A stretch of 64,000 nucleotides of DNA from Corallococcus sp. NCRR. GTDB lineage: Bacteria; Myxococcota; Myxococcia; Myxococcales; Myxococcaceae. Made by a program: the position numbers and the translations under genes. How positions within the stretch are numbered: the stretch's first letter is position 1; the number at the start of each line of letters is the position of its first letter. The stretch covers positions 3,224,001-3,288,000 of the forward strand of contig NZ_CP114039.1 of assembly GCF_026965535.1 (NCBI RefSeq). The letters are read 5' to 3'. Shown one piece after another: positions 51,829-59,792 of this stretch. The notes below the pieces were generated by a model, which had not been told where the DNA came from, did no database searches, and saw only the letters and a program-made list of their open reading frames with translations.

Positions 51829-53757
51829 ATGATCATCGGGACGGCGGGGCACATCGACCACGGCAAGACGTCCCTCGTGAAGGCGCTGACGGGCACCGAC
51901 ACCGACCGGCTCCCAGAGGAGAAGCGGCGGGGCATCACCCTGGAGCTGGGCTTCGCGCACCTGCCGCTGCCGGACGGGCAGGTGGCGGGCGTGGTGGACG
52001 TGCCCGGCCATGAGCGCTTCGTGAAGGCCATGGCCGCGGGCGCGGGCGGCGTGGACCTGGCCGTGCTGGTGGTCGCGGCGGACGAGGGCGTCATGCCCCA
52101 GACGCGCGAGCACCTGGACATCTGCCGGCTGCTCGGCGTGAAGGCGGGCGTCGTCGCGCTCACCAAGGCGGACCTGCTGGAGGGCCTGGGCGACGACTGG
52201 CGCGCGCTGGTGGAGGCGGACCTCGCCGCGCTCACCGCCGGCACCTTCCTGGAGACCGCGCCCGTGGTGCCGGTGTCCGCGCGCACGGGGCAGGGCCTGG
52301 AGGCGCTGAAGGCGGCGCTCGCCCACGCGGGCGCCTCAATGTCACGGCGCCCCGCGGAGGGCCCCGTGTTCCTCCCGGTGGACCGGGCCTTCACCATCAA
52401 GGGCTTCGGCACGGTGGTGACGGGCACGCTGTTGTCCGGCGCGCTGGCGGTGGATGACGCGGTGGCGCTGATTCCCTCGGGGGCCGGCGCGCGTCCGGGC
52501 CCCTTTCGCGTCCGCGGCGTGCAGGTGCACGGCCAGCCGGTGGCGCGCGTGGAGGCGGGGCAGCGCGCGGCGGTGAACGTGGCGGACGCGCAGACGGAGG
52601 ACGTGCACCGGGGCATGGTGCTCACGCGCGCGGGCGAGCTGCCGGAGACGTCCATGCTGGACGTGGAGCTGACGCTGCTGCCCGCCGCGGAGGCCCCGCT
52701 GCCCAGGCGGCGCAAGCTGCTCTTGCACCTGGGCACCGCGCAGGTGGAGGCCACGGTGGCGCTCCTGGACCTGGACTCGCTTTCGCCAGGGGAGACGGGG
52801 CTCGCGCAGCTGCGGCTGGAGTCTCCGGTGGGCGCGCTCGTGGGCCAGCGCTTCATCCTGCGCGGCTCGCGCGCGCTGCCGGGCCGGGGCGCCACGGTGG
52901 CCGGGGGGCGCGTGCTCTCCATCACGCCGCCGCGCCGGCGCAAGGGGGCGTCCTCGGTGGTGCGGCCGCTGCTGGAGGCGGACGCGGCCGGGCAGGTGGC
53001 GTGGCTCCTGCGGCAGGCGGGCTACGCGGGGCTCACGCAGACGGAGCTGTTCGGCCGCTCGGGGCTTTCGCCCAGGGTGCTCGCGCGCACGCTGGAGCTT
53101 TCGGGCGCCAAGGGGCAGGTGCTGCTGGTGGACCGCGACCGGCGGCTCTACGTGGCGCAGGACGTGTTCGAGGGCCTGCGCCAGCGCTCGCTCGCGCTGC
53201 TTGCCGCGTTCCACGAACGCGAACCCATGCGTGAAGGCCTGTCCCGCGAGGAGCTCCGTCAGCGGCTCTCCGCCCAGTTGGACGTGCGCCTGTTCCAGCG
53301 CGTGGTGCAGGCGCTGGTGGACTCCGGCGGCGTGGAGGCGGAGAAGGACCTGGTGCGCCTCAAGGGCCGGGGCCGTACGCTCACGCTGGGCGACGAGGCC
53401 GCGCGCACGCGCCTGTCCGCGGAGCTGTCCGCGGCGGGGCTCGCGCCGCCCACCGTCACGGAGCTGTCGCGGAAGCTGGGGCTTGCGCCCGCGAAGCTGC
53501 AGGAGCTGTTGAAGGTGCTAGTGGCCTCGGGCACCGGCGTGCGGGTGAGCGAGGAGCTGTGCTTCGACGCGGGCGCGCTGGAGGACCTGCGCGGGCGGCT
53601 GGTGACGTACCTGAAGGAGCAGAGGGAGATTTCCACGCAGGCCTTCAAGGAGCTGGTGGGCCAGAGCCGCAAGTTCAGCATCCCCCTGTCGGAGTACTTC
53701 GACCGGGAGAAGGTGACGCTGCGGGTGGGGGACAAACGGGTGCTGCGTCGCGGATGA
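51829..53757 (+). CDS. selB: Selenocysteine-specific elongation factor
   Basis: The 642-residue SelB has G1 [14 protein letters not shown], the switch [11 protein letters not shown]3 [12 protein letters not shown] and G4 TKAD, EF-Tu-like beta domains, and about four winged-helix domains from about residue 380 on that read the SECIS hairpin ([37 protein letters not shown] and [15 protein letters not shown] are helix-turn-helix-like). It delivers Sec-tRNA to UGA. Neither selA, selD nor tRNA-Sec lies in the window. Its stop overlaps the kinase start. Confidence 0.95.
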
Positions 53758-56260
53758 GCTCCAAGACCTACAACGAGCAGGAACTGCGTGCCCTGGTGGA
53801 TGCCTTCACCCAGCCCGTGCTGGTGGTGGAGGGCGAGGGGCGCGTCTGCGTGGCCAACGCCGCGTACGCGCGGCTGCTGGGCCTGCCCGTGGCGCAGGTG
53901 GAGGGCCGCTCCTTCCTGGACTTCGTCCAGCCGGAGGACCGCAGCCGGATGGCGGACCGCTTCCACCGGGTGGCCACCGGCGCGCCGCTGGACGGGCGTC
54001 CCCAGCTCTACAAGATATTCAGCGTCCACGGGACGACGGGCGAGCTCTACGTCCAGGCCAACCCCCTGCGCCTGGACACCGGGCGCTTCGCGCTGCTGCT
54101 CAGCTGCATGGTGATGGCGGAGCGCCCCCGGGAGCTGGCGGTGGCGGAGCGGCTGGTGGACACGTCCGCGGGGCTGGTGTCCGCGCGCTCGGAGGAGGGC
54201 GTGCGGCGCGTGGCGCTGGCGGGCCTGGAGGCCGCGGGCTTCCGGGCGCGCATCCTGCGCTGGGACGGCACCCGGTGGGTGGCGCGCGACGGCGTCTCCC
54301 TGCCGGCGGACACGCACCTGGCGCTGGAGGCGCTGTCGGACGGGCGGCCGGTCTTCGGCGGCGCGGACCAGGCGCAGCCCACGCACGCGTACCTGCCGGT
54401 GGGCGGGCCGCGGTCGGAGGTGCTCTGGGTCGCGGGCCCGTGGGTGGCGCCGCGGCACGGCTCGGTGCTGACGCTGTTCGCGAAGGTGGTGGGCGCGGCG
54501 CTCGCGGACGCCCACCTCCAGGCGGACGGCGCGCGCAGCCGCTGGGAGGTGGAGTCGGTGGCGGAGATGGCGCGCTTCGTGGCGCAGCCCGTGCCTCCGC
54601 CGCCGGAGACGTTCCTCGCGCGCGTGGCGGAGCTGCTCCAGGCCCGCGCGGTGGCGCTGCACGTCGTCCCCGGGCCGGGGCAGGCCCCCCGCCTCTCCGC
54701 CCAGGTGGGGTTGGAGGAGGGGAGTGACGCGGACGCCGTGCGCGCCACCGGCGTGCTGCTGGCCGCGTCGCTGAGGGAGGACGGGGGCGTGCTGTCGTCA
54801 GAGGCGCAGGGGCGCGCGCTGGAGACGCTGTCCCAGGGCCGCCTGGGCAGCGGCACGGCGGCGCGGCTCACCCGCGGCGGTGAGAGCGTGGGCGTGGTGC
54901 AGGCGCTGCGCGCGAAGGAGCGCCCGTTCGATGAACGCGACGCGCGGCTGCTGTCCACGCTCGCGGAGCTGCTGGTGACGCTCCTGGAGCAGCGCCGCCT
55001 GCGCGCCGAGTCCGCGCGCCAGCTCACGGAGACGCGCCTCCTGCTGGACCTGGCGCGCACCACCTCCGGCGTGCTGGAGACCGCGAGCATCCTGGACGTC
55101 GCGTCCGACTTCCTGGTGCACCTTCTGGACGTGTCCAACTGCTTCATCCTGCTCTACGACGAACAGGCCAAGGTGCTGCGCGGCGCGGCGGCGTCCGCGA
55201 CCCACCGCGACCTGTTCCGCACGGTGGTGGTGCCGCTCGACAGCGACGACCTGGCCGCGCGCGTGGCGCTGGAGCGCAAGCCCATCGCGGTGGAGGACCT
55301 GACGTCCGCGAGCGCTTCGGTGAGCGCGGTGCTCATCGACCGGCTGGGGGAGAAGGCGCTGCTGGGCCTGCCGCTCACCTCGCGCGAGGAGCTCATCGGC
55401 GTGGTGCTGGTGGACGACGTGCGCGGCCCGCGCCCCTTCGGCCCGGAGCTGATTGAGCTGGCGGAGGCGACGTGCGGCCAACTGGCGCTGTCCATCGCCA
55501 ACGCGCGCCTCTACGAGTCGCTGTGGGCCAGCTACGCGGAGCTGGCCGCCACCCGCGCGGAGATGGTGAAGCGCGAGCGCTTCGCCGCGCTGGGCGAGCT
55601 GTCCGCCATCGTCGCCCACGAGGTGAGAAACCCCCTGGGCGTCATCTTCAACGCGGTGGCCACGCTCCGGCGCATCATGAACCCCGGGGGGGACACGGCC
55701 ATGCTGCTGGACATCGTCGCGGAGGAGAGCGACCGCCTCAACCGGATGGTGGCGGACCTGCTGGACTTCACCCGCCCGCGCAACCCGGTGCTCCAGCCGG
55801 AGGACCTGCTGCGCGTGCTCCAGGACGCCTTCGATGCCGCGCGGGCTCAGGCCCCCACGGAGCGCCCGGTGTCCCTCTCCATCGAGGTGGAGCCCGGCCT
55901 GGCCGCGGTGCCCATGGACCGGCGGCAGATCCGCCAGGCCCTGTTCAACGTGGCCGTCAACGCCATCCAGTCCATGCCCCAGGGCGGCGAGGTCCGGGTG
56001 CGCGCGCGCCGGGACACGCATGGCGGCCGCGAGCAGCTGCGCATCGACGTGATGGACGGGGGGCCGGGCATCCCGGCGGAGCTGCTCCACCGCGTCTTCG
56101 AACCCTTCTTCACCACCAAGGCCCAGGGCACCGGCCTGGGGCTGGCGGTGGTGAAGCGCATCCTGGAGGAGCACCGCGGCGAAATCGCCGTGGAGAGCGC
56201 CGCCGGACGCGGAACCACCTTCACCTTCTGGCTGCCGCTCACGCAGCCCCAGTCCCTCTC

Positions 56261-56264
<4 letters not shown>
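53754..56264 (+). CDS. PAS/GAF sensor histidine kinase
   Basis: The 836-residue cytosolic sensor has an N-terminal PAS domain (about 1-110), one weak and two clearer GAF-like regions (about 130-290 and 290-570), then HisKA with AIVAHEVRNPLG (phospho-His about 622) and a HATPase with N box VAVNAIQSMPQ, G1 DGGPGIP and G2 GTGLGLAVV. Without a membrane segment it senses an internal signal. It overlaps selB by ATGA and the response regulator by ATGA, so the kinase and regulator are a cognate pair. The stimulus is unknown. Confidence 0.92.
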
Positions 56265-57718
<1,454 letters not shown>

Positions 57719-57763: not shown

Positions 57764-57840
57764 GAAATCGCCCCCGTTCAGGGATGAAAAAACCAACCTC
57801 CTGAATTCGTTGATTGTTTTCATCCATGAAACGCGATTTC
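57764..57840. repeat. Large AT-rich nested inverted repeat
   Basis: The outer arms GAAATCGC (57764-57771) and GCGATTTC (57833-57840) enclose inner arms GGATGAAAA (57782-57790) and TTTTCATCC (57817-57825), with GTTCA/TGAAAC pairing between. Together they give a stem of about 22 bp and a 26-nt loop. The block is far richer in A+T than the rest of the window. It lies 46 bp past the regulator stop and about 80 bp before the pxr promoter. It might be an enhancer for an NtrC-type activator, a structured RNA or the end of the upstream transcript. Confidence 0.75.
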
Positions 57841-57917
57841 AGGGCTGCAATGGGGCGGGACTGTTGCCCGGTCGTCCAAGTGCCTGAGAACTCTAGATTT
57901 CCGCCTCGTACGGGCGC

Positions 57918-57933
57918 TGGCATGGCACCTGCT
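57918..57933 (+). promoter_or_regulatory. Sigma-54 promoter of the pxr sRNA
   Basis: TGGCATGGCACCTGCT has the invariant GG (57919-57920) and GC (57931-57932) exactly 10 nt apart, the -24/-12 hallmark. The expected start is near 57944, about 20 nt before the first hairpin of the sRNA. Confidence 0.75.
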
Positions 57934-57943
57934 AAAGGGTTAG

Positions 57944-58064
57944 CTCGGGACGCATCGAAGCGAGGCTGAAAGTGGTTCCCCCCCACCCTTTCAGCACTTC
58001 CGGTGCGTTACCTTGAGAAGACCCGCGGCCCGACACCCTCACGGGTGCCGGGCCGCCTTCTTTT
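57944..58064 (+). ncRNA. pxr: Pxr small RNA
   Basis: The predicted RNA of about 120 nt has three stem-loops. SL1 pairs GCTGAAAG (57965-57972) with CTTTCAGC (57988-57995), and its loop region holds a run of exactly seven cytosines (57978-57984). SL2 is a short GCAC/GTGC stem with a TTCCG loop (57994-58006). SL3 is the terminator at 58025-58056. In M. xanthus, Pxr represses fruiting-body development while nutrients are present, and a single change in a seven-C run restored development to a cheater strain. The placement between an NtrC-type regulator and nuoN matches my recollection of MXAN_1078-1079. The exact ends are inferred. Confidence 0.8.
58025..58064 (+). terminator. Intrinsic terminator of pxr
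   Basis: GCGGCCCGACACCC (58025-58038) pairs with GGGTGCCGGGCCGC (58043-58056) with one A-C mismatch and a TCAC loop, followed by CTTCTTTTCC. It is the strongest terminator in the window. Confidence 0.88.
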
Positions 58065-58177
58065 CCGCTCCCCGCATCGTTGCAGCGTTGCAACCGCCCG
58101 CATGACGCAGCGCGGATCCATTTCACTTCTGCAATGCACCCACGGCCTTGACGCCGTGAGCCATGCCCGCAACGACA

Positions 58178-58232: not shown

Positions 58233-59792
58233 CTACTGGCCGAACAGCGTGCCGGCCTGGGCGAGCCAGTCGGTGACGTGGCCGGGGAGGATGCCCAGCA
58301 GCACCACGGCGACGGTGGCGATGACGAGCGCGGCCTCCGTGCCCCAGTTGCGCTCCAGCGGCTGCGCGCCCTCGGGGACGGGGTGCATGAACATGTAGAC
58401 CACGACGCGCAGGTAGTAATACGCGCCCGCCGCGCTGCTGAGCACCGCCACCACGGTGAGGCCCACCAGGCCCACGTCGATGGCGGCCTGGAAGATGAGC
58501 AGCTTGCTCATGAAGCCCACGGTGGGGGGGATGCCGCCCAGGGACAGCATGAAGGCTGCCATGGCGAACGCCCAACCCGGACGGCGCTGCGCGAGGCCCG
58601 CGAAGCGCTCCAGGTCCCACGCGGTCCCCTTCTCTTCGTCCTCGCGGCGCTCCAGCGCGGAGACCATGGCGAAGGCGCCCGCCGCGCTGAAGGTGTACGC
58701 CAACAGGTAGTAGAGGATGCCGCGCAGCGCGTCCGAGCGCGCCACGTCCAGCGGCGTGCCACCGGACAGCGACGACGCGGACAGCAGGCGGAAGTGCTCG
58801 CCCGGGGCCGCGACGAACAGCGCCGCCACGCCCAGGAGCAGGTAGCCCGCGTGCGCGATGGAGGAGTACGCCAGCATGCGCTTCACGTTGCGCTGCGGAA
58901 TCGCCATCAGGTTGCCGGCGATCATCGTGAGCAGCGCCAGCGTGGCGAAGAGCATCAGCGGCAGCTTGGGGTCCATGCCCTTGCCCACCGTGACGAACAC
59001 GCGCACCAGCGACGCGAACGCCGCCGCCTTCACGCCCGCGCTCATGAGGGCCGTCACCGGGGTGGGGGCGCCCTCGTACACGTCCGGCGTCCACATGTGG
59101 AACGGCACGGCCGCCACCTTGAACGCGAAGCCCGCGGCGATGAGCACCGCGCCCACGTAGACGAGCGCCGGGTTGGTGGACAGGGCCTGCTGCAGCGGCC
59201 CCGCGATGTCGTTGAGCTTCGTGGTGCCCGTGGCGCCGTACAGGAGCGCCGTGCCGTAGAGCAGGATGGCGGAGGAGAAGGCGCCCAGGATGAAGTACTT
59301 GAAGCCCGCCTCGCTGGGGCGCGTGCCGCGGCGCAGGTACGCCGTCAGCGCGTACGTCGCGATGGAGAGCACCTCGATGTTGACGAAGATGGTGATGAAC
59401 TCCGACGACATCGCCAGCAGGCTCATGCCCGCGGAGGCGAAGAGCATCAGCGCGTAGAACTCACCGCGCTCCGCGCCACGCTTGCGCAGGAAGCCCACCG
59501 CGCTCAGCGCCGCCAGCCCCAGGCCCACGCTCACCACCAGGGTGAGGAAGCTGGAGAAGGGGTCCAACACGCCGAAGCCGAGGAACACCTCCTGCGGCGG
59601 CTCGAACATCAGGCCCACGGCGACGGCGCCGCTGGCCACCGCCGCCACGACGGTGAGCACCGCCTGGTAGCCGCGGGACGCCGTCGCGGAGAGGAACACC
59701 TCCGACAACAGCAGGACGGAGGCCGCCACCACCATGATGATGGCGGGCAGCATGGGGAGGAAATCCGCCAGGGTGAGATTTGGCAGGTTCAT
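58233..59792 (-). CDS. nuoN: NADH-quinone oxidoreductase subunit N
   Basis: The 519-residue antiporter-like subunit of complex I has 13-14 helices with the conserved Lys and Glu charges of the proton path (for example FAFKVAAVPFHMWTPDVYEGAP, RNVKRMLAYSSIAHAGYLL). It is the last gene of the nuo operon, 15 bp after nuoM. It faces pxr tail to tail. Confidence 0.97.
   Translation of the reverse strand: MNLPNLTLADFLPMLPAIIMVVAASVLLLSEVFLSATASRGYQAVLTVVAAVASGAVAVGLMFEPPQEVFLGFGVLDPFSSFLTLVVSVGLGLAALSAVGFLRKRGAERGEFYALMLFASAGMSLLAMSSEFITIFVNIEVLSIATYALTAYLRRGTRPSEAGFKYFILGAFSSAILLYGTALLYGATGTTKLNDIAGPLQQALSTNPALVYVGAVLIAAGFAFKVAAVPFHMWTPDVYEGAPTPVTALMSAGVKAAAFASLVRVFVTVGKGMDPKLPLMLFATLALLTMIAGNLMAIPQRNVKRMLAYSSIAHAGYLLLGVAALFVAAPGEHFRLLSASSLSGGTPLDVARSDALRGILYYLLAYTFSAAGAFAMVSALERREDEEKGTAWDLERFAGLAQRRPGWAFAMAAFMLSLGGIPPTVGFMSKLLIFQAAIDVGLVGLTVVAVLSSAAGAYYYLRVVVYMFMHPVPEGAQPLERNWGTEAALVIATVAVVLLGILPGHVTDWLAQAGTLFGQ

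Follow-up and report, generated by a model that had tools for sequence, protein, structure and literature searches.

Comparison of a Corallococcus pxr locus with its relatives suggests a 5' leader stem in the Pxr RNA and a family of shorter C-loop hairpins in Myxococcota

Pxr is a small RNA that keeps Myxococcus xanthus from developing fruiting bodies when nutrients abound (PMC5684412, PMC10217877). According to the accessible portions of these two reports, its synthesis requires the response regulator PxrR, while PxrK, the sensor kinase of the system (PMC10217877), is needed for synthesis and perhaps for processing; RNase D makes the Pxr-L form from Pxr-XL, and the Pxr-S form vanishes on starvation. 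Changing a loop C to A (the fifth loop base) or deleting the loop of the first stem-loop (SL1) abolishes function with the RNA still made, an 8-bp core in SL3 is needed for Pxr to accumulate, and no hfq homologue occurs in myxobacteria (PMC5684412, accessible portion). The published free energy of M. xanthus Pxr is -58.3 (PMC5568312), and tandem pxr copies have been published for Cystobacter. The transcript most raised in an M. xanthus delta-pxr strain is that of pxrA, predicted to be a partner mainly of SL3 (PMC11928866, accessible portion).

The window analysed here (the whole 64,000-nucleotide stretch of Corallococcus sp. NCRR, positions 3,224,001 to 3,288,000 of contig NZ_CP114039.1) had been read from its sequence alone as carrying a Pxr-type small RNA, and the covariance search proposed with that reading has now been run. 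The Rfam model RF01812 (Pxr) matches the forward strand at 57958-58064 with 109.9 bits against a gathering score of 80, all model positions 1-109 being covered, and this is the sole RF01812 match in the genome (a single contig of 9,787,125 bp). Upstream on the same strand lie orthologues of PxrK (SpdS), a sensor histidine kinase of 836 aa (53754-56264; 92-94% identity in the congeners G057, G069 and G059), and of PxrR (SpdR/Nla19), a sigma-54-dependent response regulator of 485 aa (56261-57718), the two genes overlapping by 4 bp. PxrR is 85% identical to its M. xanthus orthologue (844 bits; the top PxrR paralogue across nine genomes searched scores 390), and a convergent NuoN orthologue follows on the reverse strand (58233-59792). 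Published pxr genes sit between these same neighbours, pxrK/pxrR and a nuo gene (PMC5568312). Over 5.5-6 kb of the locus the closest named relatives are Corallococcus sp. AS-1-6 (L103, 95.3%) and C. interemptor (L085, 93.6%). The Rfam score, the upstream pxrK and pxrR, a sigma-54 site and a terminator support identification as the Corallococcus orthologue of Pxr, and we infer that it gates development in Corallococcus NCRR as well. As such the gene is unremarkable, one more example of a known RNA, because Rfam already has the family and a pxr of C. coralloides / Corallococcus DSM 2259 is already in a published alignment (PMC5684412, Fig. 3 legend, in the accessible portion); the sequence-only reading, which had presented it as an RNA gene of the kind usually missed, was right about the RNA and overestimated its novelty. 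It is very improbable that the window copy is a decayed, unexpressed relic, as all 16 genomes of the genus have an RF01812 match above the cut-off, and promoter, C7 run and terminator are intact in all four Corallococcus copies inspected. Just 3' of the Pxr terminator lies a near-perfect palindrome, GTTGCAGCGTTGCAAC (58079-58094).

The sigma-54 promoter, TGGCATGGCACCTGCT, with GG at -24 and GC at -12, occupies 57918-57933 on the forward strand and agrees with 10 of the 12 fixed positions of the consensus, as generally known, that was used for scoring promoter sites; a score of at least 10/12 is reached at 6 of 127,968 positions in the window, both strands counted. The GG-N10-GC signature alone, on which the promoter had first been proposed, is uninformative, since it occurs 1955 times in the window; it becomes informative here because, of 79 distinct homologous copies, 77 retain it and 74 score at least 10/12. 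The copies below 10/12 are those of G122 and G123, where the site is absent, and of G125-G127 (8-9). With the -12 C at 57932, +1 falls at 57944, the start first suggested from sequence, 14 nt ahead of the Rfam start, and the predicted full-length Pxr is 121 nt (57944-58064), of which the Rfam match covers only 57958-58064. A candidate PxrR enhancer site, TGAAACGCGATTTCA (57827-57841, forward strand), would lie 103-117 nt before +1; 32 of 80 copies have the motif in their upstream 250 nt, against a background rate of 0.03 per 250 nt, and 48, including the M. xanthus locus L010, lack it. The apical GGTTCCCCCCCACC (57974-57987) is near-invariant and likely the functional site; it holds the exact seven-C run that had been noticed in the first loop (C7, 57978-57984), and it occurs once in the window (shuffles expect 0) and once in the 9.79-Mb genome. 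The SL3 terminator with its U-tract (58015-58064) likewise lies where it had been placed, as a long G+C hairpin at 58015-58062 with TTTT at 58061-58064, and its 8-bp core pairs GCGGCCCG (58025-58032) with CGGGCCGC (58049-58056), equated with the published 8 bp by way of primer GV683 in the accessible portion of PMC5684412. A simple terminator scan adds nothing, because it returns 1 site against 0.7 in shuffles.

A start at 57944 gives the RNA a 14-nt leader (57944-57957) that is outside both the Rfam match and the published 108-nt gene and is predicted to pair with 58001-58012. The result would be a composite hairpin at 57947-58012, in which a leader stem (57947-57957 with 58001-58012) encloses SL1 (57962-57999). 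The fold of 57944-58064 has -63.9 kcal/mol (z = -6.6; none of 200 shuffles as low). Three hairpins had been read from the sequence, and three are predicted when the RNA is truncated to the Rfam start and so has no leader; in the minimum-energy fold of the RNA beginning at 57944 only two remain, since the strand of the second hairpin, the published and Rfam SL2 (58002-58012), is taken up by the leader. The predicted mean pair probability of SL2 is 0.0 with the leader and 0.82 without it in the window, and 0.0004 and 0.98 in M. xanthus, so by the thermodynamic model leader stem and SL2 exclude each other; freeing the leader has a predicted cost of 12.4 kcal/mol in the window and 7.0 in M. xanthus. 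Among 79 copies folded from the predicted +1 (with starts set by hand for G087 and for G122 and G123, which have no site), the leader makes at least 7 pairs with the strand 3' of SL1 in 76, 6 in two and none in G052a.

Covariation points the same way. RNAalifold, given 47 sequences that MAFFT had aligned without structure, proposed six leader-stem pairs unprompted, and 13 of its 24 pairs overall have changes on both sides. In an alignment not fitted to the leader stem, the 11 leader pairs are paired in 79.1% of 503 cells (shuffled 62.8; slid 35.4-44.5), with a covariation of 0.514 (shuffled 0.251, 0/500; slid 0.070-0.182) and 104 cells changed on both sides against 31.6 shuffled (0/500), the shuffles ignoring kinship and the slid controls not. 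The number of leader pairs with a both-side change shows no excess (10 against 8.5 shuffled, 100/500), and 22 of the 47 sequences cannot form the pair at columns 11/66. Swapping leaders and strands among 20 copies, each representing a different genus group (the mis-set start of g12 being kept) gives a cognate mean of -15.5 kcal/mol against -11.1 permuted (sd 0.66; 0 of 20,000 as low). The effect is weak in g2 and g12, where 51% and 77% of foreign strands match the own strand's pairing (21% pair as well as the own strand in the window's fruiting group), and the g23 leader stem is itself weak at -9.6 kcal/mol.

It is improbable, in our judgement, that the published three-stem-loop RNA from about 57958 is the primary transcript, with SL2 real and the upstream pairing a matter of DNA or of a discarded part. 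The published fold and gene limits (PMC5568312 and the accessible portion of PMC5684412) favour that start, as does the Rfam model; SL2 taken alone is 71.3% paired with a covariation of 0.358 (0.225 shuffled), which is weaker than the leader stem, and alleles transplanted from the published start onward worked (PMC5568312). These transplants, however, keep upstream DNA with the leader, in a 262-nt intergenic part (PMC5568312), and primer GV490 ends just 5' of AAGCG, so that the leader is retained upstream (PMC5684412, accessible portion). The leaderless M. xanthus RNA is predicted at -59.1, close to the published -58.3, and this together with GV490 indicates that the published gene lacks the leader and that the constructs keep it upstream. 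With a start at 57958, moreover, the -12 element would lie 26 nt before it, well outside the spacing usual for sigma-54, and both the leader covariation and the short relatives described below (predicted +1 within 0-4 nt of the matched RNA start in 20 of 20) fit a leader inside the RNA. Since SL2 covaries too, it may be that both folds exist, or that the strand they have in common lends its signal to both. On balance the comparison suggests that start and fold of Pxr have so far been drawn too short. Leader mismatch was also considered as the cause of the failure of Cystobacter paralogues in M. xanthus, and was set aside when chimeric folds with Archangium/Cystobacter-type copies proved sometimes better and sometimes worse than native.

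RF01812 at E<=0.001, run with stricter filters, matches 93 of 147 genomes of the class (61 above the cut-off), all 93 in Pxr's own family f1 (93 of 96) and none in the 51 genomes of other families. Several f1 genomes carry 4-5 tandem copies. A scan of GTDB contigs for the loop pattern gave 57 matching contigs, in 54 of which R1, a covariance model that includes the leader stem, finds Pxr; three of these 54 are labelled with a different or broader taxon ("Comamonas" L089, "Proteobacteria" L117, "Deltaproteobacteria" L125). The pxr of L089 (Comamonas sp. KCTC 72670 by title) is of Myxococcus type, and the record name looks wrong. The remaining three loop matches, in Actinobacteria (L078, L083, L101), were rejected as chance, with the SL1 stem absent and no Rfam match at E<=0.01. 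A PxrR match precedes pxr in 75 of 80 copies within the fetched stretch, partial matches at contig ends included; the copies with none are those of G122, G123 and G125-G127. In these five genomes (82-100% complete) only PxrR paralogues below 390 bits were found, while PxrR orthologues score 660-844 bits in G119, G084 and G132; sigma-54 is present in G122, G125 and G126 and was not found in the G123 and G127 genomes. G125-G127 are small genomes of 2.1-2.7 Mb, which from their sample codes we take to be termite-gut MAGs, and their loci correspond to L098, L093 and L117 (records named Cystobacterineae twice and Proteobacteria). In the loci L049, L050 and L051 of these small genomes Pxr is kept near NuoN, and upstream in L050 and L117 there is a long reading frame resembling a membrane transporter, by eye of the OPT family. 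L047, L048 (G122, G123) and L136 (G086) hold a Pxr-like RNA with neither sigma-54 site nor PxrR orthologue; TTGTCA-N17-TATYTG upstream in G122 and G123 might be a sigma-70-type replacement.

R1 reaches further, with matches in 112 of the 147 genomes of the class: 95 of the 96 that belong to f1, and 17 from other families. Scores rise from the Rfam model to R1 in G091 (44.1 to 78.6 bits), G087:C14 (36 to 55.2), G092:C355 (40.8 to 66.1), G121:C597 (57.2 to 88.8) and G121:C903 (50.7 to 84.3), five places that were outside the building of R1 but had relatives in its training set; R1 is not better everywhere, as in G079 (122.2 against 134.8). The R1 places of 12 of the 17 genomes outside f1 were inspected (G009, G013-G019, G021, G034, G039 and G041; G036 and G185 were not among them), and all 12 have a sigma-54 site scoring 10-12/12, the same stem plan and GGUCCCCCCCCGCC. 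Composite hairpin, loop of at least seven C and sigma-54 start at the stem base are common to the window RNA and these short forms, and the core of the short forms, GUUGAAGnAGGU(U/C)CCCCCCC(A/G)CCACUUCAGC, also recurs in many f1 copies. The inspected forms of f3 and f6 have no SL3, and their hairpin terminates in a U-tract; G009 has a separate terminator-like hairpin, and G041 three short-form copies. An alignment of 15 short forms (13 distinct) has 27 pairs, 94.8% paired (slid 31.5-55.5), 10 of them with both-side changes against 3.7 shuffled (0/500), the number of pair types not exceeding shuffles (200/500). When long and short forms were put into one MAFFT alignment (A2), the outer stems came out misaligned, and A2 was left out of the counts. 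Second Pxr-like loci in the window genome and its relatives, scoring 22-37 bits with R1, were rejected: 14 of 14 inspected lack a six-C run on either strand and resemble ordinary terminators. R1 alone is therefore not specific at 22-37 bits, and the cases outside f1 rest on the C-loop together with the sigma-54 site.

A model built from the short forms only (R2, E<=1e-4) matches 51 of 195 genomes of the phylum, 24 of the 96 in f1, each at the pxr place, and 27 outside it (f2 4, f3 15, f5 1, f6 3, f7 1, f8 2, f27 1); at this threshold the window's own pxr is not matched. Outside f1 and outside its own alignment R2 finds 22 places, of which 20 were inspected, the other two being in G018, where one is antisense to the RNA. 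A C-run of at least 7, which the model favours, is present in all 20; the sigma-54 site scores 10-11/12 in 19 and 9/12 in one, and the predicted +1 lies within 2 nt of the match start in 19 and 4 nt from it in one. The chance of a score of at least 9 in such a 5-nt slot is 0.0034 in short-form loci. Short hairpins with a C7-C9 loop and a predicted sigma-54 start occur in 27 genomes outside f1, and in 16 of these the RNA stands directly behind a PxrR orthologue (at 57-63% in G013, G014, G015, G017-G019, G021, G034, G039 and G041; likewise in G024, G025, G035, G040, G188 and G033). In G016 PxrR lies about 1.7 kb upstream, and in f2, f5, f7 and f8 orthologue and RNA are on different contigs. NuoN is in the fetched stretch in 11 of 15 f3 genomes. 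G188 (f27) is outside the class (PxrR 59%, PxrK 47%), and its contig, from a fragmented assembly, could be mis-binned.

PxrR orthologues are found at E<=1e-135 in 130 of 195 genomes, and of 26 inspected downstream (three with less than 600 nt of sequence there) a C-run hairpin follows a sigma-54 site in three (G143, and G031 and G032 with C6), G144 has a sigma-54 site and a likely C-run hairpin, its loop breaking off in poly-C where the contig ends, and 22 have neither C-run hairpin nor sigma-54 site. A sister hairpin with the loop region GGGGACCCCCCC (L202, L203, L210) was seen in G022, G031 and a second place of G024; in L202 and L203 (G022, G031) it adjoins a different NtrC-type sigma-54 regulator (44-46%), and it is possibly a second sigma-54/C-loop RNA system. 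Several C-loop hairpins per genome, with their own sigma-54 sites and on contigs apart from PxrR, are seen in L193-L197 (G138 4 places, G139 3). A pattern search allowing up to 2 mismatches matched 91 of 195 genomes; further places found by it are G024:2596900, G055:C38 and G101:5004907, and its matches in G028, G029 and G155 were rejected, the hairpin of the same plan being absent and the promoter score 6-8.

Taken together, these data favour a model in which PxrK and PxrR would activate the sigma-54 promoter to yield an RNA of about 121 nt, from 57944 to 58064. Its 14-nt leader, as the covariation supports, would pair with the strand 3' of SL1, so that the nascent RNA forms a long hairpin presenting C7, and then SL3. 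The C7 loop would be the active surface, most likely pairing with G-rich mRNA sites, probably ribosome-binding sites, and lowering translation of the targets while nutrients last. Processing from L to S could be loss of the leader or of SL3, which is a guess; the leader is proposed, from predicted folds, as a candidate switch. The bare C-loop hairpin would be the old core of the family and SL3 an addition within Pxr's own bacterial family. We give this model as a whole (orthologue, 57944 start, leader-closed hairpin, C7-mRNA pairing and old hairpin core) a probability of roughly 0.78.

The loop is taken as the active site because it hardly changes across the phylum while the stems change freely and covary. 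That same constancy would suit a loop that titrates a C-binding protein rather than pairing with mRNAs, the main rival for loop function and a possibility we hold to be clearly the lesser one; Rho, a cold-shock-like protein and a ribosomal protein are examples of C-binding proteins. The multiplication of copies (4-5 in tandem in several f1 genomes; 3-4 places in G041, G138 and G139) also fits a sponge, but base-pairing RNAs with CU-rich sites are multicopy too, e.g. LhrC (PMC4132741, accessible portion). For pairing with mRNAs, GGGGGGA-N3-9-ATG outnumbers the backward pattern in G000 (116:21), G119 (106:29), G013 (37:4), G126 (62:17), G084 (29:4) and G132 (19:4), and the ratios are 62:32 and 15:9 in G145 and G150, genomes with no known RNA. 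As a sign of anti-Shine-Dalgarno targeting the excess is suggestive only, because G-rich Shine-Dalgarno sites give such an excess anyway, and the analysis turned up no target.

The neighbouring pxrA mRNA, bound through SL3, seems an improbable main target. In its favour, pxrA is most raised in M. xanthus delta-pxr and SL3 is its predicted partner (PMC11928866, accessible portion); against this, no pxrA match was found between pxr and nuoN in the window, in three other Corallococcus loci or in the five short-form loci searched, and most inspected short forms have no SL3. Matches to pxrA with 50-63% identity do stand beside pxr in g7/g8 loci (L015, L018, L020, L026), G046 and G121, so that pxrA-like neighbours occur more widely than the accessible portion of PMC11928866 lists. 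The pxrA-like gene of Archangium violaceum G046 follows pxr (L146 281-652) with 54-55% identity in two pieces. In M. xanthus (G119, L010 about 1203-1209) a G-run of pxrA is longer than in relatives and the frame changes there, which is either a sequencing error or real.

What is new here is the leader stem, proposed from sequence comparison, and the set of shorter relatives that Rfam does not report; our literature search, to which most subscription papers were closed, found no report of a pxr leader stem or of shorter forms of the RNA. Chen et al. (2014) reportedly placed the origin of pxr in basal Cystobacterineae. Anaeromyxobacter belongs to Cystobacterineae, and part of the short-form distribution may therefore already be known; the f27 case (G188) would lie outside that group. 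G013, G014 and G018 presumably are A. dehalogenans 2CP-1 and 2CP-C and Anaeromyxobacter Fw109-5, none of which, to our knowledge, fruits. We regard as somewhat better than an even bet the broader proposal that Pxr is the elaborated tip of an ancient sigma-54-driven family of C7-C9-loop hairpins, often coupled to PxrK/PxrR, across Myxococcota lineages that include some not known to fruit. Control of fruiting would then have come later, the leader would switch between the closed hairpin and the three-hairpin form, and Pxr-S would be the RNA with the leader removed (about 107 nt) or with SL3 removed, the ancestral hairpin (about 70 nt). If Pxr as published begins 14 nt too late, the fold in current use is incorrect, and mutants have been planned from an incomplete RNA. 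Short relatives next to this two-component system in lineages where fruiting is not known would date the switch before the trait, and they give a minimal RNA for target searches. The 2.1-2.7-Mb MAGs with the RNA and no PxrR orthologue shown amount to a natural experiment on the RNA without its regulator.

Compared with known systems, the window RNA is like M. xanthus Pxr in sequence, in SL1 with its C7 loop, in the 8-bp core of SL3 and in its sigma-54 promoter, and its locus is alike in having PxrK/PxrR upstream and a nuo gene nearby. It differs in lacking a pxrA neighbour and, from Pxr as published, in the proposed start 14 nt earlier and in a leader stem predicted to replace SL2. The short C-loop hairpins (Anaeromyxobacter-type and in other genomes) share with it the sigma-54 promoter, the stem plan and the loop GGUCCCCCCCCGCC or one close to it, and several also sit between PxrR and NuoN; unlike Pxr they are about 70-80 nt long, mostly a single hairpin ending in a U-tract, without SL3, and they were not reported by the RF01812 search of the class genomes at E<=0.001. 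The Qrr RNAs of Vibrio are, like Pxr, base-pairing small RNAs driven by a sigma-54 response regulator, and differ in being Hfq-dependent and in sequence and targets. LhrC of Listeria, not a sigma-54 system and offered here as an analogy with no claim of homology, is alike in outline (PMC4132741): multicopy, dependent on a two-component system, with CU-rich mRNA-binding sites and a rearrangement of the small RNA.
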